Below the pieces are notes generated by a model. That model was not told where the DNA came from, searched no databases, and saw only the letters and a list, made by a program, of their open reading frames with translations. This document shows, in pieces, positions 2,217 to 30,850 of a stretch of DNA of 47,974 nucleotides. The DNA comes from a virus, in the IMG/VR virus record IMGVR_UViG_3300008120_009640, positions 1 through 47,974 of that record; one strand, given 5' to 3'. The position numbers were made by a program, and so were the translations under genes. Within the stretch, counting starts at the first letter, position 1, and every line of letters starts with the position of its first letter.

Positions 2217-4379
2217 ATGGCTAACGTAAAAATAAGTGAACTAACAGAGACCACATCTATCGGCGCAAATGACATTCTGCCCGTAGTAGACATAGCAAAT
2301 ACACAAACAAAAAAGATAAAAGTTAGCAGTTTGGCAGCTAATGGTCCTATCAAAGATGCCTTAGACAATAAAGTTAGTAAGACTGGCGATACGATGTCAG
2401 GTACACTTACCGTAAATCCTGTTTCAGGAAATGCAGCGGAATTTCTTGACTTAAATATAGGAGTTCCTTCTTGGGGTCCTAATTACCTTGCTGTCGTGAT
2501 GGAAGACGGTAGTCCAAAGCAATTCTATGCAGGATCAGGAGATCAACTAGGAGCCTTTGCTGGAACCGCTTCTAAAAGAGTCGTTCTTGCTTCAGGTTTT
2601 ACATCTGGAGCTAATTCTGGACTAGTACAGGTTGGTTCAGGCGACGCGCAAGTAAGTGGAAACTCTGGAATGGTGGATATTTTTTCTGGCCCTGCTACTG
2701 GAGGAGTTTCCGGAGCTGCTAGATTGCTATCTGGAACCGGAGGTTCAAGCTCTGGAGCTGCGATTGTACGTACTGGAGCCGCACAAAGCACTGGCCCTAT
2801 TGAGCTTGTTTCAGGTAACGCGTCTGCTGGCAACTCTGGCAACATCCTATTATATACAGGTACTGCTACAGGAACTAGGGGTAGTGTTTTAACTAATACT
2901 GAAATGAACTTTCAGACATTAGGTAAAATAACAAACTTAATAAACGGTACAAGTGCACAAGATGCAGTCACTGTTTCTCAGCTATCTCAAAAACAAGACC
3001 TACTAGTTTCTGCGACCAACATAAAGACTATAAACGGATCTTCTATCCTAGGATCAGGTGATCTAGTTATTAGTGGAGGTGGTGGGGCTGACGCTACAAC
3101 TACTACAAAAGGTATCATACAATTAAGCGGTGATTTAAGCGGAACCGCAGATTCGCCTAGTGTGCCAGGATTAGCTACACTTCAATCTGAGTTAGTCGTG
3201 CTTGAATCAGATATAGCCTTAAAACAAGACCTACTAGTTTCTGCGACCAACATAAAGACTATAAACGGATCTTCTATCCTAGGATCAGGTGATCTAGTTA
3301 TTAGTGGAGGTGGTGGGGCTGTAACCTCTGTAAATACACAAACTGGAGACGTAGTATTAACTAAGTCAGATATAGGCTTATCAGATGTAGATAATACTAG
3401 TGATGCAGATAAGCCAGTTAGTACAGCTACCCAGACAGCGCTAGATTTAAAGGCAGATAGCTCTGCGCTAGCTTTAAAACAAGACCTACTAGTTTCTGCG
3501 ACCAACATAAAGACTATAAACGGATCTTCTATCCTAGGATCAGGTGATCTAGTTATTAGTGGAGGTGGTGGAGCTGTAACCTCTGTAAATACACAAACTG
3601 GAGACGTAGTATTAACTAAGTCAGATATAGGCTTATCAGATGTAGATAATGTAAGCGCAGCAAATCTAAGAGATAGGGCAACTCATACTGGTGCGCAGCT
3701 AGCTTCTACTATATCTGATTTTACGACTGCAGTTCAAGCAGTAACAATAGACGCTTCAAAAATTGGCTCAGGCCTAGTATCAAATGCAGAATTTGATTAT
3801 CTTAATGGGGTAACTTCAGCAATTCAGACTCAACTGGATACAAAACAAGCTACCATAACGGCTGGCACGACTTCTCAATATTGGCGCGGCGATAAAACTT
3901 TTCAAACGCTAAACGCTACAGCAGTCACTAACACACCTTCTGGTACTATATCGTCTACAACAGTACAAGCTGCAATTAATGAATTAAATACGGAAAAGCA
4001 AGCCACTCTCGTTTCTGCGACAAACATAAAGACCATAAATGGTTCTTCTATACTAGGATCAGGTAATTTAGTTGTTGGATCAGCCTACTCTGCTTCTTTA
4101 ATTTCTGCCCTGGACATTGACTGGAGTTTATCAGAGATATTCTATAGAGACATCTCACTAAGTTCCACTTTCACTTTCTCTAATTTAGTTGAAGGAAAGT
4201 GTATCTCTATAATTTTAACAAATACTTCTGGTTTGACCCTTACGGTATCTTTTCCTTCTGGTATATACAAAGAAGCCGGCACATTACAAATTGCAGCAAA
4301 TTCTGCTGCAGTGTATACTTTTATTAGGGCAAATAGTAAAACTTATTTGTCATCAGTAACTGGTCTTTCTAACGTTTAA
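2217..4379 (+). CDS. Repeat-containing phage tail-fibre protein
   Basis: A 720-residue virion protein with ribosome site AGGAGAAAC. It opens with ISELTETTSIGANDILPVVD, a start common in phage fibre proteins. A Gly/Ser-rich section (about 110-235) follows, then three copies of a KQDLLVSATNIKTINGSS block ending in GGGGA and a degenerate fourth copy near the end (about 595-620). Between them are two copies of VTSVNTQTGDVVLTKSDIGL. Such blocks form the beta-rich shaft of trimeric fibres. The last 85 residues are unique and probably form the distal tip. It stands between other surface-protein genes on the same strand. Receptor binding is inferred from family resemblance, not from any visible active site. 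Confidence 0.85.
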   Translation: MANVKISELTETTSIGANDILPVVDIANTQTKKIKVSSLAANGPIKDALDNKVSKTGDTMSGTLTVNPVSGNAAEFLDLNIGVPSWGPNYLAVVMEDGSPKQFYAGSGDQLGAFAGTASKRVVLASGFTSGANSGLVQVGSGDAQVSGNSGMVDIFSGPATGGVSGAARLLSGTGGSSSGAAIVRTGAAQSTGPIELVSGNASAGNSGNILLYTGTATGTRGSVLTNTEMNFQTLGKITNLINGTSAQDAVTVSQLSQKQDLLVSATNIKTINGSSILGSGDLVISGGGGADATTTTKGIIQLSGDLSGTADSPSVPGLATLQSELVVLESDIALKQDLLVSATNIKTINGSSILGSGDLVISGGGGAVTSVNTQTGDVVLTKSDIGLSDVDNTSDADKPVSTATQTALDLKADSSALALKQDLLVSATNIKTINGSSILGSGDLVISGGGGAVTSVNTQTGDVVLTKSDIGLSDVDNVSAANLRDRATHTGAQLASTISDFTTAVQAVTIDASKIGSGLVSNAEFDYLNGVTSAIQTQLDTKQATITAGTTSQYWRGDKTFQTLNATAVTNTPSGTISSTTVQAAINELNTEKQATLVSATNIKTINGSSILGSGNLVVGSAYSASLISALDIDWSLSEIFYRDISLSSTFTFSNLVEGKCISIILTNTSGLTLTVSFPSGIYKEAGTLQIAANSAAVYTFIRANSKTYLSSVTGLSNV
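2991..3650 (+). repeat. Long direct DNA repeats inside the fibre gene
   Basis: A 99-bp unit occurs at 2991-3089, 3222-3320 and 3477-3575 with almost no base changes. The second and third copies continue into a shared stretch to about 3395 and 3650, making two near-identical units of about 174 bp, 255 bp apart. A diverged partial copy lies at about 4009-4075. Identity at the DNA level implies recent duplication or ongoing homogenisation, and predicts copy-number change by recombination. Confidence 0.9.
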
Positions 4380-4393
4380 TTATGGAGAGCTAG

Positions 4394-6781
4394 ATGTCGT
4401 CCAAACCTTTTTCTTTTTTAAAAAAAAGAACAACTACCATTTTAAACAAATTACAAAATGCAGAATATAGGGGACTATACGGACCTACACTAGAAATACA
4501 AGACATATTGATTTTACCAGATGATTCAATTATTGTTGTTGGCTCATTTATCGGCTTCGTTGATCCTAACGGTATTAATTATTATTGTGGTAATATTGTC
4601 AAATTTTTAGCGGATGGTAGCATAGACACTACATTTCAAAATAACGCAGGTTTAGGATTTAATGGTAATACTAATACAATAGCTACTGACGGAACTAGCC
4701 TATATGTAGGTGGAGGTTTTACTCAATTTGGTAATACTGCTAATAATGCCAAATATATAGCTAAATTAAGCACATCAGGTGTATTTGATACAGCGTTTAG
4801 CGACAACCTAGATTTAGTATCTGGAACTAAATCATTTGCAACTTCTGGTTTTAACAGTGCTGTTAACACAATAGCCATTGATGTAACTAGCCTATATGTA
4901 GGCGGACAATTCACTCAATTTAAAAATACTGCCAATAATGCTAATCGCATAGCTAAATTAAGCACATCAGGCGTATTTGATACAGCATTTAGCGACAACC
5001 TAGATGTAGTACCTGGAACAAAAGCCACAACTTCTGGTTTTAATAATAGGGTTTACACAATAGCCATTGATGTAACTAGCCTATATGTGGGCGGAGAGTT
5101 TACTCAATTTAAAAATATTGCTAATGCTAGAAAGATAGCTAAATTAAGCACATCAGGCGTATTTGATACGGTTTTCGGTAATAATGTAACCAGCTCCTCT
5201 TTTGGGAATGGCGATGTCTATGCAATAGTCATTGATGGAACTAGCCTATATGTAGGTGGACGTATATACGACTTTAATGCTACCAATAACGCTAGAGGTG
5301 TAGCTAAATTAAGCACATCAGGCGTATTTGATACAGCTTTTAGCAATAACCTAGATGTAGTGTCTGGAGTAAAAGCCACAACTTCTGGTTTTAGCCCTAC
5401 TTCACTAACAGGAACTGTTGGTTCTTGCACTGTAAGATGTGTGGCTATAAAAGGAACAGACCTATATGTAGGTGGAGATATGCTTGCATTTAAAAATTCT
5501 GCGTGCTTAGGTTTTGCAAAGTTAAACACTTCTGGCGTATTTCAAAATCTTATACAAAATAAATACGGATCCGGTAATGCAGATTCATGTGCCGTAGACG
5601 CTAATGGTAATATCTATATAGGAACTGTTACTTACAACGGAACTAGAACTCAATCAATATGTAAAATTTTACCAAACGGCACCTTAGATACTGCATTTCA
5701 AAATAATATAGGCATAGGATTTAATGGCAGGGTTCTCACAATAGTCATTGACGGAACTAGCCTATATGTAGGCGGACAATTCACTCAATTTGGTAATACT
5801 GCTAATAACGCAAGATACATAGCTAAATTAAGCACATCAGGCGTATTTGATACAGCTTTTAGCAACAACCTAGATGTAGTGTCTGGAACAAAAGCCACAA
5901 CTTCTGGTTTTAATAATTATGTTGGGGCAATAGCCATTGATGGAACTAGTCTATATGTAGGCGGACAATTCACTCAATTTAAAAATACCGCTAATAATGC
6001 TAATCGCATAGCTAAATTAAGCACATCAGGCGTATTTGATACAGCGTTTAGTGATAATCTAGACGTAGTATCTGGAGTAAAAGCCACAACTTCTGGGTTT
6101 AATAGTATCGTTTACACAATGGCTATTAATGGAACTAGCCTATATGTAGGTGGAGGTTTTACTCAATTTGGTAATACTGCTAATAATGCCAAATATATAG
6201 CTAAATTAAGCACATCAGGCGTATTTGATACAGCGTTTAGCGACAACCTAGATGTAGTGCCTGGAACAAAGGCCGCAACTTCTGGATTTAATAATGCCGT
6301 TTATACAATGGCTATTGATGGAACTAGTCTATATGTTGCTGGATTTTTTACTCAATTTAAAAATACCGCTAATAATGCCAAATATATAGCTAAATTAAGC
6401 ACATCAGGCGTATTCGATACAGCGTTTAGCGATAATCTAGACGTAGTATCTGGAGTAAAAGCCACAACTTCTGGGTTTAATAGCTCTGTTTGGGGTATTG
6501 CAATTGTCGGTACTATTTTGTATGTTGCTGGATTTTTTACTCAATTTAAAAATACTGCCAATAATGCTAATCACATAGCTAAATTAAGCACATCAGGTGT
6601 ATTTGATACAGCGTTTAGCGACAACCTAGATGTAGTACCTGGAACAAAAGCCACAACTTCTGGATCTCAGAATTCATTGACTGGAATAAAATACAGCTCA
6701 GTTTACGGTAGCTTAATTATTTTTTCTGATGGACTAATACTCTTCAATCAGTTACCTTATTCAGGCGTTATGATAATATAG
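4394..6781 (+). CDS. Delta-60-repeat beta-propeller-like surface protein
   Basis: A 795-residue protein made mostly of about a dozen repeats with the core GTSLYVGGQFTQF, then IAKLSTSGVFDTAF, about 63 residues per long unit. This matches the delta-60 (DUF5122) pattern of a VGG.F strand followed by an (I/L)A(K/R)L...G..D..F strand, which is expected to build beta-propellers. The N-terminal 25 residues are basic and the last 40 are unique. As the last gene of the + strand virion block it is most likely a fibre tip or adhesin. Two central repeats (about 355-430) are divergent and carry several Cys. The function is inferred from fold and position. Confidence 0.75.
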   Translation: MSSKPFSFLKKRTTTILNKLQNAEYRGLYGPTLEIQDILILPDDSIIVVGSFIGFVDPNGINYYCGNIVKFLADGSIDTTFQNNAGLGFNGNTNTIATDGTSLYVGGGFTQFGNTANNAKYIAKLSTSGVFDTAFSDNLDLVSGTKSFATSGFNSAVNTIAIDVTSLYVGGQFTQFKNTANNANRIAKLSTSGVFDTAFSDNLDVVPGTKATTSGFNNRVYTIAIDVTSLYVGGEFTQFKNIANARKIAKLSTSGVFDTVFGNNVTSSSFGNGDVYAIVIDGTSLYVGGRIYDFNATNNARGVAKLSTSGVFDTAFSNNLDVVSGVKATTSGFSPTSLTGTVGSCTVRCVAIKGTDLYVGGDMLAFKNSACLGFAKLNTSGVFQNLIQNKYGSGNADSCAVDANGNIYIGTVTYNGTRTQSICKILPNGTLDTAFQNNIGIGFNGRVLTIVIDGTSLYVGGQFTQFGNTANNARYIAKLSTSGVFDTAFSNNLDVVSGTKATTSGFNNYVGAIAIDGTSLYVGGQFTQFKNTANNANRIAKLSTSGVFDTAFSDNLDVVSGVKATTSGFNSIVYTMAINGTSLYVGGGFTQFGNTANNAKYIAKLSTSGVFDTAFSDNLDVVPGTKAATSGFNNAVYTMAIDGTSLYVAGFFTQFKNTANNAKYIAKLSTSGVFDTAFSDNLDVVSGVKATTSGFNSSVWGIAIVGTILYVAGFFTQFKNTANNANHIAKLSTSGVFDTAFSDNLDVVPGTKATTSGSQNSLTGIKYSSVYGSLIIFSDGLILFNQLPYSGVMII
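4680..6670 (+). repeat. Tandem repeat array encoding the delta-60 units
   Basis: Units of about 189 bp recur, each carrying close copies of GGAACTAGCCTATATGTAGG and TAAATTAAGCACATCAGG. Long stretches are identical between units, for example around 4740-4830, 6180-6270 and 6590-6660. The array invites slippage or recombination that would change propeller length. Confidence 0.85.
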
Positions 6782-7655: not shown

Positions 7656-8075
7656 TTACGAATAGCGCGACTCTATCCATACGAACATCTCCTGTATCTT
7701 AGCTTCAGAGGCCGCTCTGTCGTTCCAGAATCTACATAGACCACTTGGATGAGGCAGAGCAAAGTGCTCTATATCAGCTAGACCTAAACCGTAAGAAGCC
7801 TGTTTTCCAAGAGTGATTATTTTCGTATCGAAGATTCCGTGAAATTTTTGCTTGATATTGACTAGTTCTAGCTTGATAACCTTATTACTAAGTGGCTTGT
7901 TGCCTTCTGTTTTATAGTCAACTAGATTTATATAGGTCAACTCATAGTCACTGCCATTGAATAGCTTATCTATAAACTGTCGTGATTTTGTAGTTGGGTG
8001 AAAAGGTGAACAGTCGGGTGACGCAGAGCTAGGATTACTGCCTACTATTATCAATTGCTTTTTGATCAAACTCAT
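7656..8075 (-). CDS. Uracil-DNA-glycosylase-superfamily-like protein
   Basis: A 139-residue protein opening with KQLIIVGSNPSSASP, a beta strand and loop like the GxNPS motif of the uracil-DNA glycosylase superfamily. A central KIITLGKQASYGL strand and a C-terminal LPHPSGLCRFWN follow; HPSG matches the second catalytic motif (HPSxxxR). It is short for the superfamily (usually 160-220). It would excise uracil or a related base from DNA and lies downstream of the dCMP deaminase. The motif match is by eye, and activity on uracil is uncertain. Confidence 0.5.
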   Translation of the reverse strand: MSLIKKQLIIVGSNPSSASPDCSPFHPTTKSRQFIDKLFNGSDYELTYINLVDYKTEGNKPLSNKVIKLELVNIKQKFHGIFDTKIITLGKQASYGLGLADIEHFALPHPSGLCRFWNDRAASEAKIQEMFVWIESRYS

Positions 8076-8203: not shown

Positions 8204-8647
8204 TCAAAGTTTGTAGCTGAGTTTGTAGAAGCCTTCCGGCGTGGTCTCTTGTTCAATCCTAAGATCCTTCATGTTTATGTTATGATCTCTGTACAGATCT
8301 CTACATACAACCTGCGTTATTCCAGCCTGCCACATTAGTCTAAGGCATTTCTGGCAGGGACTAAGTGTTATAACTAGAGTGCAGTTATCTATGCAGATGC
8401 CAGACTTAGCGCAGTGCGAGATAAGATTATCCTCAGCATGAATCATATACTCGTATTTTTCAGGTCGAGTCTTGGGCAGTAGATGATCTGGTGCACCGCG
8501 AACGAAGCCATTATGCGCAGTTGCCACCACCATGCCGGTATCGTTCTTAATAAGAATAGCACCAACCTTAGTTTCAGCATCATGTGATCTAGCTGACACT
8601 GCTACGGCCATGCTCATCCAGTATTCTAGCTTACTTGGTCGCGTCAT
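8204..8647 (-). CDS. Deoxycytidylate (dCMP) deaminase
   Basis: A 147-residue zinc enzyme converting dCMP to dUMP, the precursor of dTMP. The zinc site is intact: His70-Ala-Glu72 (HAE) and Cys98/Cys101 in SPCQKC. The start (SKLEYWMSMAVAVSARSHD) and the KVGAILIKNDTG strand are typical of the ComEB/phage T4 Cd family. Its ATG overlaps the stop of the upstream gene as ATGA, implying coupled translation. With ThyX (30146-30850) and ribonucleotide reductase it forms a thymidylate supply route. Confidence 0.92.
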   Translation of the reverse strand: MTRPSKLEYWMSMAVAVSARSHDAETKVGAILIKNDTGMVVATAHNGFVRGAPDHLLPKTRPEKYEYMIHAEDNLISHCAKSGICIDNCTLVITLSPCQKCLRLMWQAGITQVVCRDLYRDHNINMKDLRIEQETTPEGFYKLSYKL

Positions 8648-9504
8648 ACGTCGTCAATTGTTAGTGGTCTAGACGAATACCAGTCTCTATGTCTCTTAGA
8701 CAAGAAAGATTCGATAGTCAGCGTTCGAGACCTTGAAATCCAGCGACGAGGTTTAGGTAGTTCACCTTGAGCCTCTATTTCTACGAGTACCTTGTCAGTA
8801 AATCCAAATTTATTATAAATCTGATCTTCGTTAGTTTTTCCATATGCGTAGACGCTGCCGTTCCAGTCTGTCATCGGAGTCTTGTCTGTCTGCGTAATTA
8901 TTACATTCTTAATTTGCCATTTAACAATGGCTTCGCCAAACGCCGTATTTGCATCATATATCGTATCGCCGATTTTAAGATTAGTTGCAAAATTATAAGC
9001 TTCTTGTTCAGTGCTAAATGCTATTATTTTTTTCTTATTAAGATTTCTAGCTTTATTTTTCTTTTTTGCTAGCTGCTTGCCTTCTTTAAATGGATCAAAG
9101 TCATTTTCTTTTGAAAAGATTATGGCTTCTGCTTGAGCATCATCTAGTTCAAGTTCATATGATCGACTAGGATATCTTATTGTTAAGCAGACCACGTCTT
9201 TGCCTAAACCGCCACTTGAATTAATTGCTTTTGCGAATACGAAACCTTCATCCTTATGAACAACTAGGAATTTAGTTTTATTGCCGCTGCCATGTCGCCT
9301 GACATAGTTTCTTGTTTTATCTGTAGAAATCCAGACTATCGAATAAACTTCACCTACATTTACATGAGCGTAGTCTTCAAAAGACTTCATTATGGTTTTA
9401 CTTTGCTCATAATATTCTGCGTTTTTAATTCTTTTTTTATCTTCTTCTGAAAGCGTCACGTCCATACTGTCCTCTATTTTATGAATTGATCTAGATTCTT
9501 CCAT
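8644..9504 (-). CDS. Hypothetical protein, 286 residues
   Basis: No family recognised. It has a charged N-terminal third, a beta-rich middle (VYSIVWIS, KFLVVHKDEGFVFAK), a lysine-rich linker (KKKNKARNLNKKK, about 147-160) and a basic, Arg/Ser-rich C-terminus. Its stop overlaps the dCMP deaminase start (ATGA), and its start lies inside the 3' end of the ThyX-like gene by 31 nt, so the three are probably co-translated. A nucleic-acid-binding role is possible from composition only. Confidence 0.7.
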   Translation of the reverse strand: MEESRSIHKIEDSMDVTLSEEDKKRIKNAEYYEQSKTIMKSFEDYAHVNVGEVYSIVWISTDKTRNYVRRHGSGNKTKFLVVHKDEGFVFAKAINSSGGLGKDVVCLTIRYPSRSYELELDDAQAEAIIFSKENDFDPFKEGKQLAKKKNKARNLNKKKIIAFSTEQEAYNFATNLKIGDTIYDANTAFGEAIVKWQIKNVIITQTDKTPMTDWNGSVYAYGKTNEDQIYNKFGFTDKVLVEIEAQGELPKPRRWISRSRTLTIESFLSKRHRDWYSSRPLTIDDV

Positions 9505-10025
9505 TCTACCCTTAGAATACCCTCTATGACTTTTCTATAATTCTCTATTTCTTTTGGTAATTTCTTTTGCCTAAGAAAAGAAACCCAATTTGACAACCTA
9601 CCCGCCACTATAAGTTCATTATAAACAGTTATTGGTGTTAGTAGCTGAGCTGTAAATCTAGAAGCTCCGTCCATAACTATCCCCTTATGATTTAGCAGTA
9701 AGGCTTCTGTTGTTATTTTTATATAGTTCGCAATCTCACTCTTGTCTTCTAGAGTTTCGCCATCTATAGAAGATACATCAGGAATATAGGCCTCAACATT
9801 CTCAGAGGGGGTTGTGATAATGTTGAGGCCGTATTGTGACAGATTTAACTGCACAAAAAGTGGACATTTTATAACTAAAACTGCAGAAGATATCTCTAGC
9901 AGTTTAACGTTGGTTTTCGCTCTAAAGTAATGATCCTGCAGATCCTGCAGCAGTCTGCCATCGCCCGCAAAAGATAAGGGCGCCACAAAACCTTTGTCTA
10001 GCAAATTAATCTTGTTTAGCAGCAC
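9474..10025 (-). CDS. ThyX-like protein lacking the catalytic RHR motif (putative pseudoenzyme)
   Basis: A 183-residue protein resembling flavin-dependent thymidylate synthase end to end. It begins with LLDKGFV, as in bacterial ThyX. LLEISSAVLVIKCPLFVQ corresponds to the strand before the ThyX motif, and SRFTAQLLTPITVYNELIVAG followed by LSNWVSFLR.KKLPKEIENY corresponds to the ARxxLP...nxRSLxNFLxLR...EI.xY region. Where RHRxxSxxxxSxR should stand there is LSQYGLNIITTPSENVEAYI, so catalysis as a thymidylate synthase is unlikely. A complete ThyX exists elsewhere in the window. It may be a regulatory subunit or have a new activity. The DNA of the altered motif is a perfect inverted repeat. Confidence 0.55.
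   Translation of the reverse strand: MLLNKINLLDKGFVAPLSFAGDGRLLQDLQDHYFRAKTNVKLLEISSAVLVIKCPLFVQLNLSQYGLNIITTPSENVEAYIPDVSSIDGETLEDKSEIANYIKITTEALLLNHKGIVMDGASRFTAQLLTPITVYNELIVAGRLSNWVSFLRQKKLPKEIENYRKVIEGILRVEWKNLDQFIK
9789..9830 (-). repeat. Perfect 12-bp inverted repeat inside the ThyX-like gene
   Basis: GGCCTCAACATT and AATGTTGAGGCC are exact reverse complements separated by 18 bases, inside coding sequence. On mRNA this would form a strong hairpin. It is not followed by a U tract, so it is not an ordinary terminator. It covers exactly the place where the ThyX catalytic motif would be encoded. Confidence 0.8.
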
Positions 10026-10498
10026 TATTCTTCCTCTTTATTAGCCTCAATAAGGCCTGCAGGAATCACTGGGCCGTCATCTGAAAGGGCAGCCTCAAGA
10101 ATTCCAGTAGCCACGATATCTTCCCAATTTGCCTCGATATAATCTACTGTGCCTTCGTCTAAAAATGCCGAAGACTTATTGAAGTCTTTGGTTAAAGCAT
10201 AGACCATCGCATGATGTTGCTCGCGCTCCCACATGCAACCAACTGTTTCAACCATCTCATAGAAGTCGAACGGGCCTCGCATTGTTGAGGCTAGTATATT
10301 AGGTTTATTTCTAGAACCAGTATTGACTGCAACAATAAACTTCTCATTTATAATTTTAGAGAAATCCATCGTGCCTTCCATAAGCTCTGCACAGAAATCT
10401 TCTGACTGAGTCAGTGGTTTGGCCACAGTTAGACTGTCATCTTTCTTAGGTGAAACTTTGTCTTTGTGACTTTGAGTTGAATCTGGAATAAAGCTCAT
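10025..10498 (-). CDS. Hypothetical protein, 157 residues
   Basis: No family recognised. The first 35 residues are hydrophilic and probably disordered. The rest looks like a compact alpha/beta domain (KIINEKFIVAVNTGSRNKP, FDFYEMVETVGCMWEREQ). The tail is acidic (NKEEE). Its stop abuts the start of the ThyX-like gene and its start overlaps the upstream gene (ATGA), so it belongs to the same operon. The GGGGTCAAAATG start has a usable ribosome site. Confidence 0.7.
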   Translation of the reverse strand: MSFIPDSTQSHKDKVSPKKDDSLTVAKPLTQSEDFCAELMEGTMDFSKIINEKFIVAVNTGSRNKPNILASTMRGPFDFYEMVETVGCMWEREQHHAMVYALTKDFNKSSAFLDEGTVDYIEANWEDIVATGILEAALSDDGPVIPAGLIEANKEEE

Positions 10499-11037: not shown

Positions 11038-11560
11038 GTTTATTTATCGAATCTGTCGAAGCAGATAGTTCCTCTTCTAGAGTCTGAGTAGCATGAGCAT
11101 CCCTTAATTCTTCAACTGATATAAGTTCAAGCAGCTGATATGGAACAGACAAGTAGATGCCTTCACCATAATGCCCACTGAGATGAAACCTAGAGTCTCT
11201 AGACTTAAGTTGGCTAATTTTTTCTACCAGCTCTGAGTCATCTACTGTAGCAGACTTTAGACTACTTACAAAATCATTTACATTTATGGTATCTACTATA
11301 AACTGCCTAAATGATGCTGGCATGTTCTTAAACATCTGTATTCTTTTTTGTCTTAACAGCTTTTCATGTTCAAGTTGAAGTTCTTTCAATTCCACTTCTT
11401 CTTTAGATGACAACCCAGGCCCTATATGCAGTGAATAGGCTGGATTGATGGTTAAGTGACCTGAACTTGTGCCCGTAGTGCTAATAATTGGATTTACGTT
11501 CGCACCACTAGCCCCCATTACTGAATCTATATAGGCTTTTGTTACTGCGTCGTCCATCAT
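11030..11560 (-). CDS. Hypothetical protein, 176 residues
   Basis: No family recognised. The N-terminal 50 residues are Gly/Ser/Thr/Asn-rich and probably flexible. A charged helix with coiled-coil character follows (KEEVELKELQLEHEKLLRQ, about 52-70), then an alpha/beta part. Its start overlaps the stop of the dCMP-hydroxymethylase-like gene, so the two are translationally coupled. Its final codons double as a phage promoter box for the next gene. Confidence 0.7.
   Translation of the reverse strand: MMDDAVTKAYIDSVMGASGANVNPIISTTGTSSGHLTINPAYSLHIGPGLSSKEEVELKELQLEHEKLLRQKRIQMFKNMPASFRQFIVDTINVNDFVSSLKSATVDDSELVEKISQLKSRDSRFHLSGHYGEGIYLSVPYQLLELISVEELRDAHATQTLEEELSASTDSINKHE
11045..11057 (-). 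promoter_or_regulatory. Phage promoter box (ACAGATTCGATA class), leaderless type
   Basis: The minus strand reads GACAGATTCGATAAATAAAC followed directly by ATG 11037. CGATAA stands 6 nt from the start codon. The box lies within the coding end of the upstream gene, encoding TDSINK. Confidence 0.65.
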
Positions 11561-12357
11561 CGCCTTCCTAGCATCTTGAGGATTTTTTCTTCATCTCTGT
11601 CATAGGTATGAATAGAGTCAACCATATGTGTATATGGACCTAGCTTCAGATCTGGGTAGATATCACTGAGCTCTTTAATCATATCTTCTGCTAGCGATAT
11701 AAACCACGGCAAGTCATAGACTAGACCTAAAGTAAGATCGTTGCTTCGCATGTGAACTCTGAACAACAACCTATCATCCCTGATATGGAAGTTGCCGTCT
11801 AAGGTACAAGTCATATCCTTGTTACCCTTATAGAAATGCTCTGGTAAGCTAAAACGCAGTATAGCCTGCCGTGTATCCTTATCAGATCTCAGCGCATCAA
11901 CGCACCACTCCCAGGGAGTTCGCATAACTCTGCCGCTATTGTCAATAAGATAATTGACCACCTGATCTGAGATAAGACCTTGCAGATTATTAAACAGCTC
12001 ATACTTAGGGTTGCCATGCGACTTGTTATGCTTAACTAGATAGCCATAAGCTGAGTTTATTGTATCATCTGGATTTGCGATATCAAGCCAAAACTTAGAT
12101 GCTTCAGCAAAGTCGACTGCTTTGTTGGAGCCAGAATTGTAGAGTCCACATTCTTTCGCTGTATAGCTTGCAATAGTCTTGTTGCGTGCGGCATCATGTG
12201 TAACTATCGTCTCACTTTTTGGCTCTGCGATCTGAAAGGCATAATACATCTTCTCACGGACTCGCTGACCTCGCGGTGAACAAATGTGATCTGGATTATC
12301 ATAGACGTCAGCTAGAACACCTAGATATGCTTCATGTATATTGTTAAATTTCTTCAT
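11557..12357 (-). CDS. Thymidylate-synthase-family enzyme with dCMP hydroxymethylase signature
   Basis: A 266-residue ThyA-fold protein predicted to add a one-carbon unit to C5 of dCMP. Conserved ThyA features are TRQAIL (the DxRR phosphate site), the nucleophile Cys in MTCTL, MRSNDLTLG (RSxDxxLG) and the HTY pair. The key change is at the PFN Asn that recognises dUMP: here it is Asp (LVYDLPWF). Asn-to-Asp at this site is the hallmark of phage T4 gp42-type dCMP hydroxymethylase and turns bacterial enzymes toward dCMP. Start 12357 is chosen for its GGAGGGG site. TATAAT lies just upstream (about 12371-12376). It implies hydroxymethyl- or methylcytosine in phage DNA. Confidence 0.72.
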   Translation of the reverse strand: MKKFNNIHEAYLGVLADVYDNPDHICSPRGQRVREKMYYAFQIAEPKSETIVTHDAARNKTIASYTAKECGLYNSGSNKAVDFAEASKFWLDIANPDDTINSAYGYLVKHNKSHGNPKYELFNNLQGLISDQVVNYLIDNSGRVMRTPWEWCVDALRSDKDTRQAILRFSLPEHFYKGNKDMTCTLDGNFHIRDDRLLFRVHMRSNDLTLGLVYDLPWFISLAEDMIKELSDIYPDLKLGPYTHMVDSIHTYDRDEEKILKMLGRR

Positions 12358-12379
12358 GTCCCCTCCATGACAATTATAC

Positions 12380-12745
12380 TTAATCATCATATTCAGTTTC
12401 ACCAAGTACCGTCTCTAAATTAAGAGACCAAAACCCATAGCCTTTTGATTTATTTGTTAGTTTTTTCATTAGTGAACCAACTCGCTTACTAAGATGGCCA
12501 TATACAAAAGTAGACTCTTTCGTATTGTGGTCTGGGCTATAGTTGCGTAATGCTATAAAAACTTCCGTCATTAGATATGAGCGGATATCGGCCATAGTCC
12601 AGCCGCTGTTGCCTAAGCTTACGCAATCATTGTTTTTACTTAGACAGGCCTCGTTCCAGTTTTTTCTAACTGAATTAGCCATGTAGCTTTCAATCATCGG
12701 TGCATATTTAAGCACCATTTCATTAGTTATTGTTCTCACTTCCAT
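12380..12745 (-). CDS. Small protein resembling sigma-factor region 2
   Basis: A 121-residue protein. The segment DIRSYLMTEVFIALRNYSPD, then ESTFVYGHLSKRVGSLMKKL and YGFW, resembles sigma-70 region 2 (DLxQEgxiaL..ai..fDp...F.tya...I...i). There is no region 4. T4 gp55 is a precedent for small divergent phage sigma factors. If real it could recognise the repeated phage promoter box. The similarity is weak and only by eye; a plain hypothetical protein is the alternative. The GAGGAAGC ribosome site sits in the end of the upstream gene. Confidence 0.4.
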   Translation of the reverse strand: MEVRTITNEMVLKYAPMIESYMANSVRKNWNEACLSKNNDCVSLGNSGWTMADIRSYLMTEVFIALRNYSPDHNTKESTFVYGHLSKRVGSLMKKLTNKSKGYGFWSLNLETVLGETEYDD

Positions 12746-13232
12746 GCTTCCTCACTAGTGACTCTATTAAATAGAGTATATTTTTACGATGAACTTGATT
12801 GCTCACACTTGTAATACTGTCTTCTCTAGTAACCTGATCATTGTATTCTGCAATAGCAAAAAAGTCTTCGAATATATCTTCTTCGCGACGTGCTTTTCGC
12901 TGCAGCTGCTTAATTGCCTTAAATGTCTTGGTTCTAGTTGGTTCTTTATTCGTAGATACCCTTGTATATAGATGAGAAAAATTATCTACAACTGACTCAG
13001 TTATATTTGACTTAGTTGCAGCATAATCTATCGTATAGCCATTAATAGTCTGAGTACGTCTAACACACTCAGTGATTAATCGACCTAGAAAACTAGGATC
13101 GTCGGCAGGAGGAAACCACGGCATCGACTCTGCTCTTATTGTCTTCAAATCACTAGACATCTTTAGTCTTATAAGAGGTGCACCTGGATCAATACTACTT
13201 GTTAAAGACTTTAGGCGATCATCAAACTTCAT
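12723..13232 (-). CDS. Hypothetical protein, 169 residues
   Basis: No family recognised. It is mainly helical, with a basic middle (KTFKAIKQLQRKARREED, about 102-119) and an Asn-rich end. It has a good AAGGAGC ribosome site. It overlaps the downstream sigma-like gene by 23 nt and the upstream gene by 4 nt, so it sits in the same operon. The pairing suggests a possible partner of the sigma-like protein, but this is speculation. Confidence 0.7.
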   Translation of the reverse strand: MKFDDRLKSLTSSIDPGAPLIRLKMSSDLKTIRAESMPWFPPADDPSFLGRLITECVRRTQTINGYTIDYAATKSNITESVVDNFSHLYTRVSTNKEPTRTKTFKAIKQLQRKARREEDIFEDFFAIAEYNDQVTREDSITSVSNQVHRKNILYLIESLVRKHGSENNN

Positions 13233-13939
13233 ACGGTGCTCCTTTCATCAATTGAATATATAGGTTTATTCTGATGAGTCATAATTTTTAGCTTCGTAAT
13301 ATTTGCAAGCGCAGGTAAACTTCCATCATTAGCATAGAGCACTATCCAGTTGCTGAATCTAGCGGCAAGCTCTGCATCTCGTATGTCTAGCTTTTTAGAC
13401 TTAATCAGACCAACTATATGATTTCTTAGACAACGCATTTTTTTACTGGCTGATCTTTTCTGCTTTACTTCTTCTGCATTGAATAGATCAGCAATCTCAT
13501 TTATTCTTTTTGAATCAGCGTGACGATTATACATGCTAAGTTTATTTTCTACATTTTTAATAATTATGTTCATGACACCGTCGTCTTCAACGCAGAACAT
13601 TTTCTTCACTAGAAAAATTTTGCCGTCTATTTCTTTAGTAGCAAAATTGTAACGCAGTGAATCTGTTTGCTCACCTTCTGAGTTAACTATCTCAAACTGA
13701 AAGAAATTAGGATCTAGGTCCCAGACGTTTTCTGAAAGAGCATTGAGCTCCGCAGATTTTGCATATCTTCTAACTATATCACGCACGTTTGTTCCCCATG
13801 TAGACTCTAGCTGATCTGGATCAATTTCTAGCCTATCTGGAAACTTCGATAGGTCTTCGTTCAGACCACATTGATATGGCTCAATAAGCCTGGATATGTC
13901 ATCCATCTCTTCATAGACACGATCTTTAAAAATAGACAT
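13229..13939 (-). CDS. Hypothetical protein, 236 residues
   Basis: No family recognised. It has an acidic N-terminal half, a beta-rich segment around residues 85-130 and a basic helical part (KQKRSASKKMRCLRNHIVGL, about 163-182) that could bind nucleic acid. The ribosome site TTTTAGGAGTTACC is preceded by AACG; the same AACGTTTTAGGAG leader occurs before the gene starting at 24649. Confidence 0.7.
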   Translation of the reverse strand: MSIFKDRVYEEMDDISRLIEPYQCGLNEDLSKFPDRLEIDPDQLESTWGTNVRDIVRRYAKSAELNALSENVWDLDPNFFQFEIVNSEGEQTDSLRYNFATKEIDGKIFLVKKMFCVEDDGVMNIIIKNVENKLSMYNRHADSKRINEIADLFNAEEVKQKRSASKKMRCLRNHIVGLIKSKKLDIRDAELAARFSNWIVLYANDGSLPALANITKLKIMTHQNKPIYSIDERSTV

Positions 13940-14655: not shown

Positions 14656-14848
14656 AGAGTTTTCTAGTGAGTTCGGTGTAGAGAGCGAGTGGCCAAAGTA
14701 TATGATTAGTGAAGCCCATAAGTAGAAATACAAGTATGTTGAGCTGTCCACCCATAAGTGCAGTGCCAAATTTATCAGCGTTTCTGTAATGTATGAAAAG
14801 ATTTACGACTGATCCTATGAAAAGCCAACCTAGAATAATTGCGTTCAT
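14654..14848 (-). CDS. Small membrane protein, 64 residues
   Basis: Two predicted membrane spans: about residues 3-20 (IILGWLFIGSVVNLFI) and 36-57 (LNILVFLLMGFTNHILW). The linker carries HYRNADKFG. The ATG overlaps the stop of the UV endonuclease gene (ATGA). The function is unknown; position gives no strong hint. Confidence 0.65.
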   Translation of the reverse strand: MNAIILGWLFIGSVVNLFIHYRNADKFGTALMGGQLNILVFLLMGFTNHILWPLALYTELTRKL

Positions 14849-15861
14849 TGTTTACCTCGCAAATAATCTAACAATTTTATAGAGGCTAAATTCTTACTCT
14901 TGCTTTCACACATTATGTCAAAGTCTTTTCTGAAGCCCGAGATCCAGTCATTGCATGCCAGATTCCAGTAGTCGTCTGAATGAGCTCTTAAAGCTGTTTT
15001 TTTGTAGCCAGCACTTAATAGTAGTGCAAGATCAGGTTTTTCATCTGACGAATGATCGGCAAAAACTGATTGTTTAGATATACTATAGTGCATACTAGGT
15101 CTTATACCTCGCCAACTTTCTATAACCTGCTTAACGCTGTCTGAGTCAGGTTCGATATATTTGCCTGTGTTTATCCAGTGATGGTGTACATCTAAAACTA
15201 ATGCGACATGTTGTTTAAGTTTAATTGTCTCATCTAGGCTATAACTAAACTCGTCATTTTCTATTGTGATTAGATTTCTAGCCACATCAGATAGTCGACC
15301 TAGGTTTTTTATAAGCGTAGAGGTACCGCCTTTACCACCAATATGTATATTTATCTTGCAGCCATCTTGAAAAGATTTGCCGTAGCCAAGCCATCGAGCC
15401 ATATCCGCATGATATTCAAACTCTTCTAGTGACCTGTCTACCACATCGTCCTTGTCACTCGCTAGCACAGTAAACTGAGCTGGGTGAAAGGAAACCTTGA
15501 TGCCTAGATCCCGCGTCTTGCCACCTATATGCGTTAATTCTTTTTCAAGCTTCGATTGTAGTTCGCAGCTTTTCCAGAAGCTGATCCAATTTGGATGTGT
15601 GTATAGCGGGCATATATCACTGCTGATGCGAAACATACGCAATTCAGGATCCAGTGTTCCCACATAGTCTATAATTCCGCCGAGTGCAGCTAGGTTATGA
15701 TCTAGTATTGAGTGCAATCGCTCCTCTGCGACAGAGCGCTTCTGTTTATTTGCCCACGTAAACGTGGTCGTACGACAGTTAAGTCGTGACTCGATAGCCT
15801 CTAGCTCTTTTGCTGGAAGCTCAATATCATGCATATATTTGCAGGCAAAGCCAAGTCGCAT
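14845..15861 (-). CDS. uvsE: UV damage endonuclease (UvsE/UVDE family)
   Basis: A 338-residue TIM-barrel repair enzyme that nicks DNA 5' of pyrimidine dimers and other distortions. Family hallmarks are MRLGFACKY at the start, FRISSDICP (R.SS), VSFHPAQF (metal-binding HP), LGKINIHIGGK-like CKINIHIGG, the ITIENDEF metal Glu, ALVLDVHHH and a late HSD. The length is normal for the family. The ribosome site is GAGGTAGT, and TATAAT lies 27 nt upstream of the start. It probably belongs to an early transcript with the small membrane protein downstream. It would protect phage DNA from sunlight damage. Confidence 0.9.
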   Translation of the reverse strand: MRLGFACKYMHDIELPAKELEAIESRLNCRTTTFTWANKQKRSVAEERLHSILDHNLAALGGIIDYVGTLDPELRMFRISSDICPLYTHPNWISFWKSCELQSKLEKELTHIGGKTRDLGIKVSFHPAQFTVLASDKDDVVDRSLEEFEYHADMARWLGYGKSFQDGCKINIHIGGKGGTSTLIKNLGRLSDVARNLITIENDEFSYSLDETIKLKQHVALVLDVHHHWINTGKYIEPDSDSVKQVIESWRGIRPSMHYSISKQSVFADHSSDEKPDLALLLSAGYKKTALRAHSDDYWNLACNDWISGFRKDFDIMCESKSKNLASIKLLDYLRGKQ

Positions 15862-21940: not shown

Positions 21941-21958
21941 CTTAACCTCTTGATTTTA

Positions 21959-21971
21959 TATCGAATCTGCC
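21959..21971 (-). promoter_or_regulatory. Phage promoter box for the MoxR-like operon
   Basis: The minus strand reads GGCAGATTCGATATAAAATC, then AAGAGGTTAAG and ATG 21940. It lies back to back with a + strand TATAAT for the ClpP-like gene. Confidence 0.65.
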
Positions 21972-21985
21972 AAAGCAAGACCAGG

Positions 21986-21991
21986 TATAAT
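21986..21991 (+). promoter_or_regulatory. TATAAT -10 element for the + strand ClpP-like gene
   Basis: CCAGGTATAATGC lies in the divergent gap. It would give a leader of about 35 nt containing AAGGGA before ATG 22034. No -35 box is clear. Confidence 0.5.
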
Positions 21992-22033
21992 GCTAGATAT
22001 AGTATGCTGCCGTGGCAGTGTCAAGGGACATAT

Positions 22034-22603
22034 ATGAACGACAGGCGACAGACTGATTTTGATATTCTCATAGAGCATGGTATAGATATACGCGGCAGAA
22101 TAATCTACTTGCAGGGCGAAGTCGACAGTGAGAACATACATAAGTTTGTTAAGTTGATAAAGTATCTAGATAAAACAGATGGCGAAATATTAGTAGTGCT
22201 TGACTCAAGCGGCGGAGATGTCAATCTTGGTTTTGCGGCCTATGATGCTATAAAAGACTGCGGAAATGCTGTTACCGTTAAGGTAATAGGCGTAGCGATG
22301 AGTATGGGTAGCATCATATTGCAAGCGGCAGATGTTAGAGTCATGAGTAAGCATTCAAGATTGATGATACATAGAGGTCAGATGGATGTCAATGGTCATT
22401 TTAATGATGTTAAGCGTGCAGTACAAGAAAATGATGAGATGGATAAGATCTGCATGGCTATTTATTTATCTAAGATAAATGAAAAAGATTCAGGTTTTAA
22501 GCTAGCGCAACTCCAAAAAATGATGGACTTTGATACTTATATTTCTTCAGAAAAAGCTCTTGATCTAGGTCTAATAGACGAGATAGAGGGCGAAGACGAC
22601 TAA
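22034..22603 (+). CDS. ClpP-like serine protease, first of two
   Basis: A 189-residue Clp-protease-fold protein. Its triad is visible: Ser90 in GVAMSMGS, His113 in LMIHRG and Asp167 in FDTYISSEKALDLGLID. LDSSGGDV is the conserved oxyanion-loop region. Start 22034 is chosen for AAGGGA at good spacing; an in-frame upstream ATG (22004) lacks one. It stands alone on the + strand between - strand genes. It may assemble with the second ClpP (28427-29098) and be fed by the phage ClpA, or act as a capsid-maturation protease. It shares no close sequence with the second ClpP beyond the fold. Confidence 0.88.
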   Translation: MNDRRQTDFDILIEHGIDIRGRIIYLQGEVDSENIHKFVKLIKYLDKTDGEILVVLDSSGGDVNLGFAAYDAIKDCGNAVTVKVIGVAMSMGSIILQAADVRVMSKHSRLMIHRGQMDVNGHFNDVKRAVQENDEMDKICMAIYLSKINEKDSGFKLAQLQKMMDFDTYISSEKALDLGLIDEIEGEDD

Positions 22604-28154: not shown

Positions 28155-28458
28155 TAAGCACGTCTTTCACATCTTTATCAAATTGAAGATTGAAGACAAC
28201 GGACTCTGCTGCTTTTTTTGGTGCATCCCATAGACTATCTTGAAAAGACTCATGAGCGCTAGACAGCATCCATTTGCACATTTCAAGCTTAATCTCTAGT
28301 TGATTTTCAAACGAATTGTCAGCTGTAAATTTATCTAATGCAACTTGCAACTCAGCTGATAACGGCACGTTAAAGTGTGTGGCATACTTTATAACATTTG
28401 CACAATCTTCGTTTGAAATCGTTACTTTATTTTTTACTTCGTCTGTTTGATCTGGCAT
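28126..28458 (-). CDS. Hypothetical protein, 110 residues
   Basis: A helical acidic protein (VIKYATHFNVPLSAELQVAL, FENQLEIKLEMCKWMLSSA). GAGGAGGAC precedes its ATG, and a phage box lies 25 nt upstream, inside the coding end of the ClpP gene. Family unknown. It could be a partner of ClpP by position only. Confidence 0.65.
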   Translation of the reverse strand: MPDQTDEVKNKVTISNEDCANVIKYATHFNVPLSAELQVALDKFTADNSFENQLEIKLEMCKWMLSSAHESFQDSLWDAPKKAAESVVFNLQFDKDVKDVLTKGDDSAQE

Positions 28459-29098
28459 TTGTCCTCCTCTTTTTTGTTTTTTTATCGAATCTGTTTAAGT
28501 TCTTCTTTTCCAAGTTCAAAACTTTTCCGTATGTTTTTTCTGGTGCAATATCTATTTGATACATAGTTAGAGGCTTTATGTGAGGCATACCTATGAAGTC
28601 GACTATACCAAACTTCCTGCAGTCTTCTGCACTAAGATATAGATCGCGAGAATCGTTGTCTTTAATTATTTTTTTAAGTTGATCTAAGGATTTTCCGCAG
28701 CGTTTAGCGAGAAAAGCCATAAAAGACTCGTTCATTCTTTTGCACTCATCTACATTTTTCTGTAGACTCTCTATAGGACCATAGTCACCACCAGTAGCCT
28801 GATGTATCATCACCCTCGATGATCTTCCGCAGAAACGATGATCACCTGCAGCAAGCAAGACTGCACCGCAGCTCATTGCTTTACCCATACACACGGTGAT
28901 TATAGGACTGGCGACCTGCTCTATGGTTTCCAGCATAGAATTAAGTGAATCAAGTGAACCACCATATGAGTCTATGTAGACTATGATGGGGACTCCAGGA
29001 TCACTTACCGCTCTAGAAATCAAATGCTTTCTAAAGTTTCTCGCAGACTGTTCTGTAAATTCGTTAACCACAATGTCATCGATCGAATTGTCAGACAT
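28427..29098 (-). CDS. clpP: ClpP-like serine protease, second of two
   Basis: A 223-residue ClpP. The triad is Ser76 (KAMSCGA), His99 (RVMIHQ) and Asp152 (SRDLYLSAEDC), with IDSYGGSL before it; all match bacterial ClpP closely, including the MIHQ block. The short N-terminus starts at the axial-loop region, and no long propeptide is seen. The C-terminus has a basic, probably disordered tail (KKTKKRRTNARSNRRSKK). It lies on the same strand and in the same cluster as ClpS and ClpA, so it is the likely proteolytic chamber of a phage ClpAPS machine. AAGGATTTT is the ribosome site. Confidence 0.9.
   Translation of the reverse strand: MSDNSIDDIVVNEFTEQSARNFRKHLISRAVSDPGVPIIVYIDSYGGSLDSLNSMLETIEQVASPIITVCMGKAMSCGAVLLAAGDHRFCGRSSRVMIHQATGGDYGPIESLQKNVDECKRMNESFMAFLAKRCGKSLDQLKKIIKDNDSRDLYLSAEDCRKFGIVDFIGMPHIKPLTMYQIDIAPEKTYGKVLNLEKKNLNRFDKKTKKRRTNARSNRRSKK
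28483..28495 (-). promoter_or_regulatory. Phage promoter box inside the ClpP gene end
   Basis: The minus strand reads AAACAGATTCGATAAAAAAA. It encodes NRFDKK in ClpP and precedes GAGGAGG and ATG 28458. Confidence 0.65.
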
Positions 29099-29708: not shown

Positions 29709-30149
29709 CTAGTCTTCATCGTCTAAAAAAATGTCGTCTATATCGTCAGGAAACTGAGTGTAATATAGATTATTAAATACTGCTATTTGCTCGTCTAATT
29801 CTTTTTTTGCTATAATTTTCTTATTCTGCTTATGTAAGTACATAAGCCTCCACTTAATTCTTTTCCATGTTCGCCAAACGGGGCATAGCCATCTTACGAA
29901 AAAGTTAGGTGCCTCATAGGAACTATTTATGCAGTTTGATCCAACGCTAAACTGCAAAGATATACCCTTACCGCTACTACTCTCCCATAAAGTTATAAAA
30001 CAACGCTTAAGTGTAAACTGCATCTTATTTATTATGCGTTCGTCATAGCGAACCTCGTAATTAATTCCATTTGGCCAATTTTCTGGCGTACTAGAAATAA
30101 GCATCTCTTCTACTCTTTCAAGCAATATGAGTATATGCTCTTTTTTCAT
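29709..30149 (-). CDS. Hypothetical protein, 146 residues
   Basis: Start 30149 (MKKEHILILLERVEE) is chosen because its ATG overlaps the ThyX stop (ATGA). The middle holds strands and many Trp/Arg (FVRWLCPVWRTWKRIKWRLM), and the end is very acidic (FPDDIDDIFLDDED). Family unknown. Confidence 0.65.
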   Translation of the reverse strand: MKKEHILILLERVEEMLISSTPENWPNGINYEVRYDERIINKMQFTLKRCFITLWESSSGKGISLQFSVGSNCINSSYEAPNFFVRWLCPVWRTWKRIKWRLMYLHKQNKKIIAKKELDEQIAVFNNLYYTQFPDDIDDIFLDDED

Positions 30150-30850
30150 CTGGTTTTCCAACCTGCCGCCTCTGCTATAACTGGAAAAGCCTGTGTTAGC
30201 TGACTTTTTATTTCTTCAGCAATATCTCTGTGCTCTTTCTGAGTTGACGGATCAGTTCTTAAATTAACATAGTGCACCCATGATCTTAGAGTGCCGTTCA
30301 TGAACATACGAGTTCTGGCTTGCACCGGAAGCACTGCGCGAGCAGTTTCTTTAGCTATACCGTTGTCCAAAGCCCACTTATAGTGATCAAATGCTGACCG
30401 CCAGTTTTCTAGTTGGCGATCTTCCCATTCTTGCTTTACTGCTTCATCTAGATCGTCTATAGAGTTCTGTCTGTTTTTTACATCTTGTCTTCTTGCTACA
30501 AACAACTCTATACCGCTTTCGTCAACCGACTGATAGCGCTGACTAAACTCCTGGAAGCTGAACGATCTATGCCTAAGTATCTGAGCCGAGATAGCTCTGG
30601 AAGTCTCTATCTCAAATGTAGCGTTACCTGTTTCTAATATTGACCAGTGACCATGATTCATGCAGTATCTGATGAGGCCTGCGTAGCTAGGATTTTTCTG
30701 ATCTGAAGAGCTTACTCTAGCCATGTAAGCGACTAGACCTTCTAGCGACTGCACATTATTAATAAAGACATCAGCACCGTCATCTGATTCAAGTAGATGG
30801 TTCATATATGAATCGTCTATCTTTGTATGTGCTACAAGCCTTACTTGCAT
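30146..30850 (-). CDS. thyX: Flavin-dependent thymidylate synthase
   Basis: A 234-residue ThyX converting dUMP to dTMP with FAD and methylene-tetrahydrofolate. The signature RHRxxSxxxxSxR is intact as RHRSFSFQEFSQR (93-105), preceded by HWSILETGNATFEIETSRAI. ARAVLPVQARTRMFMNGTLR and the WVHYVNLRTD block are the C-terminal substrate site. GAGGGTAC is the ribosome site. It provides dTMP from the dUMP made by the dCMP deaminase. It lies inside the Clp operon. A degenerate paralogue is at 9474-10025. Confidence 0.95.
   Translation of the reverse strand: MQVRLVAHTKIDDSYMNHLLESDDGADVFINNVQSLEGLVAYMARVSSSDQKNPSYAGLIRYCMNHGHWSILETGNATFEIETSRAISAQILRHRSFSFQEFSQRYQSVDESGIELFVARRQDVKNRQNSIDDLDEAVKQEWEDRQLENWRSAFDHYKWALDNGIAKETARAVLPVQARTRMFMNGTLRSWVHYVNLRTDPSTQKEHRDIAEEIKSQLTQAFPVIAEAAGWKTR

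Follow-up and report, generated by a model that had tools for sequence, protein, structure and literature searches.

A predicted dCMP 5-hydroxymethylase of the T4 gp42 kind, found with ThyX in a large environmental phage

In phage T4, the chemistry of 5-hydroxymethylcytosine (5hmC) hides the phage DNA from bacterial restriction enzymes. DHFR is needed by methylases, which oxidise folate, but not by hydroxymethylases or ThyX. The phages of the Xp12 lineage have 5-methylcytosine, as shown for Xp12. Three residues of T4 gp42 (Ser94, Tyr96 and Asp145) have roles in hydroxymethylation (PMC6400193). Likewise, Ser169 and Arg123 set its preference for deoxyribose over ribose (PMC5175136). In environmental phages, the MetaGPA study (published 2021) connects Asp177 with modified cytosine and reports its co-occurrence with dCMP deaminase (PMC8670742). 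The Asn-to-Asp rule and its link to modified cytosine are already published. To these we add a new clade, grounds for preferring hydroxymethylation to methylation or hydroxylation, and a pathway reconstructed in part.

The gene, its family and its nearest solved relatives

The window is the whole stretch of viral DNA that was analysed (47,974 nt). The family, active-site residues, conservation and partner genes of the following gene are established at the level of sequence.

11557..12357, minus strand: predicted dCMP 5-hydroxymethylase (T4 gp42-like, ThyA fold), 266 aa, ATG start; by PF00303, profile search and AlphaFold2/Foldseek

The longest open reading frame called mechanically covers 11557-12405, with a TTG start and 282 aa. 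A strong ribosome-binding sequence ('ggagggg') lies directly upstream of the ATG at 12357, and close homologues begin at this same residue. So this ATG is the likely start, and the limits given in the original prediction are correct. The stop codon occupies 11557-11559. The gene belongs to a tight same-strand block and overlaps by 4 bases the next gene, whose start is at 11560. The gene upstream gave an 'Antirestrict' Pfam match (E 0.021, below the cut-off), which we took as chance.

The 266-aa protein matches the thymidylate synthase family PF00303 with 42.2 bits (curated cut-off 24.3) and phrog_160 with E=1.9e-26. Its AlphaFold2 model is confident (mean pLDDT 95). With this model, Foldseek found MilA (3e-18), T4 dCH (5e-15), and then ThyA and AfhB. 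The protein is thus a member of the thymidylate synthase family, by sequence and by fold. A search of the PDB with the single sequence gave MilA at 5e-18, T4 gp42 at 5.7e-9 and ordinary ThyA at 0.002 at best. The profile of 36 members gave 2e-45 for MilA, 9e-44 for T4 gp42, about 1e-22 for ThyA and other chains, and 1.7e-21 for AfhB. The hydroxymethylases MilA and T4 gp42 are the closest solved relatives, and ordinary ThyA is far more distant.

Purifying selection acts on the gene, with pN about 0.09 and pS about 0.76 against a homologue that is 86% identical (L004). In the 36-member alignment, which reaches down to about 30% identity, neither Asp215 nor any of the catalytic residues varies. 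Given this invariance and the pN and pS values, the Asp215 pattern is not due to chance.

Active-site residues and the predicted reaction

11713..11715, minus strand: Asp215 codon, pyrimidine-selecting residue (T4 Asp179, E. coli Asn177); by alignments, invariant in 36 homologues
11743..11745, minus strand: Ser205 codon, deoxyribose preference (T4 Ser169; Ala176 in ribo-specific MilA); by alignments, role from PMC5175136
11806..11808, minus strand: catalytic Cys184 codon (T4 Cys148); by alignments
11815..11817, minus strand: Asp181 codon, water-holding residue of hydroxymethylases (T4 Asp145); by alignments, role from PMC6400193

Asp215 is located within GLVYDL. This stretch aligns with the E. 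coli ThyA sequence GLPFNI, and Asp215 itself with T4 gp42 Asp179. The residue confirms the Asn-to-Asp switch of the original prediction. The catalytic Cys, RSxD and HxY that were said to be kept are also present, as Cys184, R204-S205-N206-D207 (RSND) and H250-T-Y252. All 11 of the T4 residues compared (Glu60, Trp82, Ser94, Tyr96, Asp145, Cys148, Ser169, Asp171, Asp179, His216 and Tyr218) are identical here. The hydroxymethylation residues Ser94, Tyr96 and Asp145 correspond to Ser102, Tyr104 and Asp181, and the folate-site residues Glu60, Trp82 and Asp171 to Glu69, Trp90 and Asp207. The pair formed by the catalytic Cys148 and the cytosine-selecting Asp179 is matched by Cys184 and Asp215. The position of Asp181 holds Leu in ThyA, Asn in DLP4 and Glu in RB69. 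The protein stops 14 residues past HTY and has no ThyA C-terminal tail.

Characterised enzymes were compared at T4 positions 145/149/179, which yields a residue code:

E. coli ThyA: Leu/His/Asn
SPO1 gp29, dUMP hydroxymethylase: Asp/Asn/Asn, without Trp82
DLP4, kin of the 5-methylcytosine phage Xp12: Asn/Pro/Asp
RB69 ORF048c: Glu/Thr/Asp, with Trp82, Asp171 and Tyr218 lost
T4 gp42: Asp/Thr/Asp
266-aa protein of 11557-12357: Asp/Thr/Asp

The code tells apart five chemistries that share one fold, namely methylation and hydroxymethylation, each of either dUMP or dCMP, and the hydroxylation of dCMP. Asp/Thr/Asp is present in 147/169 sampled family members, a sample biased by fetch patterns that contained parts of the signature (CT.., MRSND), position 179 not being in the patterns. 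In the family tree the deep nodes are weak, and the tree carries no part of the argument. Many bacterial genomes (Rhodobacteraceae, Variovorax, Comamonas, Actinobacteria; L137-L206) have Asp-type relatives in which Gly replaces T4 Ser94.

Asp215, Ser205 and Arg163 together predict dCMP as the substrate, rather than dUMP or CMP, which agrees with the dCMP preference proposed originally. An ordinary ThyA redundant with ThyX was ruled out, with Asp215 in place of Asn177 and with the kinship to hydroxymethylases. A dUMP hydroxymethylase of the SPO1 gp29 type was also discarded; that type combines Asp145 with Asn179, and here Asp181 stands with Asp215. MilA being the closest solved relative could suggest a CMP (ribonucleotide) hydroxymethylase that does not serve DNA. 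However, in place of the ribo-selecting Ala176 and Lys133 of MilA this protein has Ser205 and Arg163, like the deoxy enzymes (PMC5175136), and its phage also encodes dCMP deaminase, ThyX and NrdA. We rejected the MilA type on Ser205 and Arg163, and consider such an activity extremely improbable.

The original prediction left hydroxymethylation and methylation side by side. In a dCMP methylase, hydride transfer would reduce the methylene, the products would be 5-methyl-dCMP and dihydrofolate, and 5-methylcytosine would be found in the DNA as in Xp12. The work cited in PMC8670742 indicates that the Asn-to-Asp change alone makes ThyA a dCMP methylase, and the Trp at the ThyA Trp80 position is retained here. 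On the other hand, the DLP4 enzyme, which represents the Xp12-lineage methylase (same group) in place of Xp12's own, has Asn-x-x-Cys-Pro, a long C-terminal tail and a DHFR two genes off. The 266-aa protein has Asp-x-x-Cys-Thr and ends 14 residues after HTY, and a search for DHFR in 7 records found none. The lack of DHFR fits a hydroxymethylase and ThyX, neither of which needs it, although a host DHFR may exist. Considering Ser102, Tyr104 and Asp181, the missing tail and the undetected DHFR, hydroxymethylation is favoured. A methylase is very unlikely, and with DLP4 as control the Xp12-lineage type was ruled out on residues, tail and DHFR.

A third possible reaction is that of a flavin-dependent 5-hydroxy-dCMP synthase (RB69/AfhB kind), which would give 5-hydroxycytosine, maybe then glycosylated. 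The superfamily and the Asp are common to both, and AfhB structures are among the Foldseek matches. In the profile search, however, AfhB trails MilA and T4 gp42 by more than 20 orders of magnitude. RB69 ORF048c, identified by position and similarity as the 5-hydroxy-dCMP synthase of Mosigvirus in PMC13390438, has Ala, Asn and Phe in place of Trp82, Asp171 and Tyr218, with Glu at position 145, whereas Trp90, Asp207, Tyr252 and Asp181 are kept here. The kept folate-site residues and the profile score excluded the hydroxylase, which we regard as scarcely credible for this gene.

The product of the gene is therefore very probably a phage dCMP 5-hydroxymethylase with the mechanism of T4 gp42, acting in the pathway proposed below. 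In this mechanism, Cys184 would attack C6 of dCMP, and Asp215 would recognise and protonate the cytosine. Methylene-tetrahydrofolate would donate the one-carbon unit. A water held by Asp181 and its neighbours would then quench the exocyclic methylene, giving 5-hydroxymethyl-dCMP and free tetrahydrofolate.

The larger phage contig and the nucleotide pathway

The phage is uncultured, and the window covers one part of its genome. Nearly the whole window recurs at 99.996% identity in the IMG/VR contig G002 (165,836 bp). G002 encodes a phrog_405 DNA polymerase, which we read as PolC/DnaE-like, together with a RecA-like protein, a DnaB-like helicase and a portal protein. By these genes it is a large tailed phage whose replicase does not belong to the T4 group. 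The genes of the nucleotide pathway are as follows:

8204..8647, minus strand: dCMP deaminase, same strand and gene block as the hydroxymethylase; PF00383 7.7e-21, phrog_174 2.7e-35
30146..30850, minus strand: ThyX, FAD-dependent thymidylate synthase, motif RHRSFSFQEFSQRY; TIGR02170 2e-50, 171 bits (cut-off 87.9)
34621..35649, plus strand: NrdB-like ribonucleotide reductase small subunit; by reading of the sequence
35609..37342, plus strand: NrdA-like ribonucleotide reductase large subunit; phmmer to T4 nrdA 1.1e-23 on the identical contig
G002:37222-37653: homologue of the T4 gp56 family of dCTPases/dUTPases; phmmer 9e-14 to T4 gp56, PF08761, phrog_173 as T4 gp56
G002:14514-15374: P-loop kinase candidate; phrog_761, weak match
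G002:12942-13478: P-loop kinase candidate, substrate unassigned; phrog_2107

The ThyX that had been proposed to make dTMP is thus present. Of the 13 records searched, 10 have a PF02511 (ThyX) match above the cut-off and 2 more a match below it, a count that includes the distant LR756500. In that 462-kb megaphage (L030/L031, LR756500.1 276524-278152), ThyX gives two matches in one 577-aa frame, like an intein or insertion. A search of a literature library found no paper on ThyX together with a dCMP hydroxymethylase. PF00383 is found in 12/13 related records; in G004, G009 and G010 it falls in an open frame of 350-410 aa and may be fused to another domain. The PF08761 family includes plain dUTPases too. 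G002:37222-37653 belongs to the gp56 family of pyrophosphohydrolases and is predicted to be a dCTPase and/or dUTPase. Apart from this phage, the only related record found to have a gp56 homologue is G009, several of the records being fragments. Complete replacement of cytosine is thus not shown for the clade as a whole. On G002 the gp56 homologue adjoins an N6/N4 DNA methylase (G002:36508-37200, PF01555 1.8e-13).

In the proposed pathway, dTMP would have a separate route, in which dCMP deaminase supplies dUMP to ThyX. The gp56-family enzyme, encoded elsewhere in the phage, likely cuts dCTP (and dUTP) to the monophosphate. This step would feed both branches and keep plain cytosine out of new DNA. 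The 5-hydroxymethyl-dCMP would be phosphorylated by a putative kinase and then incorporated. The virion DNA would carry 5hmC resisting many restriction enzymes. The reaction product, its incorporation into DNA and the role against restriction are what we infer.

A look through the genome for a kinase and a glucosyltransferase, suggested at the outset, could be made on G002. It gave the two candidate kinases, one of them with a weak match, and no recognisable glucosyltransferase. No T4 gp1-type dNMP kinase was detected by phmmer on G002. The phrog_761 family, which one candidate matches weakly, is that of the kinases located in the modification neighbourhoods of RB69, AXL3 and phage G. A Pfam scan of most non-structural G002 proteins, other than some small or boundary-spanning ORFs, detected no glycosyl-, carbamoyl- or acyltransferase. 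With no glycosyl- or carbamoyltransferase detected, the 5hmC may be bare or its decoration unrecognised, and the protection could be partial. We presume that the virion DNA is modified and that the modification guards it against restriction.

The enzyme could also make 5-hydroxymethyl-dCMP while 5hmC is minor or transient in the phage DNA, or decorated by an unrecognised enzyme. The lack of a detected glycosyltransferase, carbamoyltransferase or clear T4 gp1 kinase speaks for this, as does the absence of the gp56 homologue from most related records searched. Nevertheless, this phage does have the gp56 homologue, and absence judged by Pfam is weak evidence for fast-evolving phage enzymes, some proteins being unscanned. 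We consider this outcome somewhat unlikely. A broader proposal is that a phage lineage unrelated to T4 by its PolC/DnaE-like replicase replaces cytosine with 5hmC, bare or decorated by an unrecognised enzyme, and uses ThyX for thymidine; we hold it as tentative, and unlikely in this complete form. 

The favoured gp42-like reading extends cytosine hydroxymethylation of this type to large environmental phages that form a clade with a non-T4 replicase, several contigs being of 100-176 kb. If this reading is right, many type II enzymes and some sequencing preparations should miss such phages, which would still be open to defences that target 5hmC.

Five unknown proteins (8644-9504, 9474-10025, 10025-10498, 12380-12745 and 13229-13939) remain close to the gene for the hydroxymethylase in 9 to 12 of the 20 related loci. 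They are possible pathway or decoration partners. Near the dCMP deaminase, 7656-8075 encodes a small protein of the uracil-DNA-glycosylase superfamily (PF03167 barely over its cut-off), kept in five related loci. The UV-damage endonuclease UvdE (14845-15861, PF03851 6.8e-42) is found in only 1/20 related loci. The phage has an apparent Clp set: a ClpA/ClpB-like ATPase (by reading) and two ClpP-family proteases (PF00574 in two members) at 31232-33532, 28427-29098 and 21950-22603 of the window, and a ClpS adaptor (PF02617) within G002:98000-150700. Two long repeat-rich proteins (2217-6781), with internal repeats and a stretch common to another G002 region, are probably tail fibres.

Comparison with known systems

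T4 gp42 (PDB 1B49, 6A9A) shares with this protein the active-site residues compared above and the ThyA fold without a C-terminal tail. Both phages have dCMP deaminase, NrdA and a gp56 homologue. However, the identity to gp42 is about 25%, and T4 Arg124 is Gln here. T4 uses Td/ThyA instead of ThyX and gp43 instead of a phrog_405 replicase, and its glucosyltransferase and gp1 kinase have no counterpart found here.

The MetaGPA homologues with Asp177 share the Asn-to-Asp change and the co-occurring dCMP deaminase domain; their contigs differ in the carbamoyltransferase, not found here, and the relevant sections of that paper do not describe co-occurrence with ThyX (PMC8670742). Xanthomonas phage Xp15 gp36 has the same residue set, and a dCMP deaminase adjoins it. 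However, it is about 26% identical and has a Nol-like carbamoyltransferase nearby, not found here.

MilA (PDB 5JNH) is the closest in structure and sequence among solved proteins, with the PRGQ N-terminal motif and the Asp for cytosine. It differs in Ala176 and Lys133 (ribo preference) and in its longer C terminus, and it serves mildiomycin synthesis. The DLP4 thymidylate synthase has the Asp at the cytosine-selecting position and a dCMP deaminase neighbour. In contrast, it has Asn-x-x-Cys-Pro, the long tail and DHFR in its operon. Finally, RB69 ORF048c and AfhB share the superfamily and the Asp, whereas the folate-site residues lost in ORF048c are kept in the 266-aa protein.
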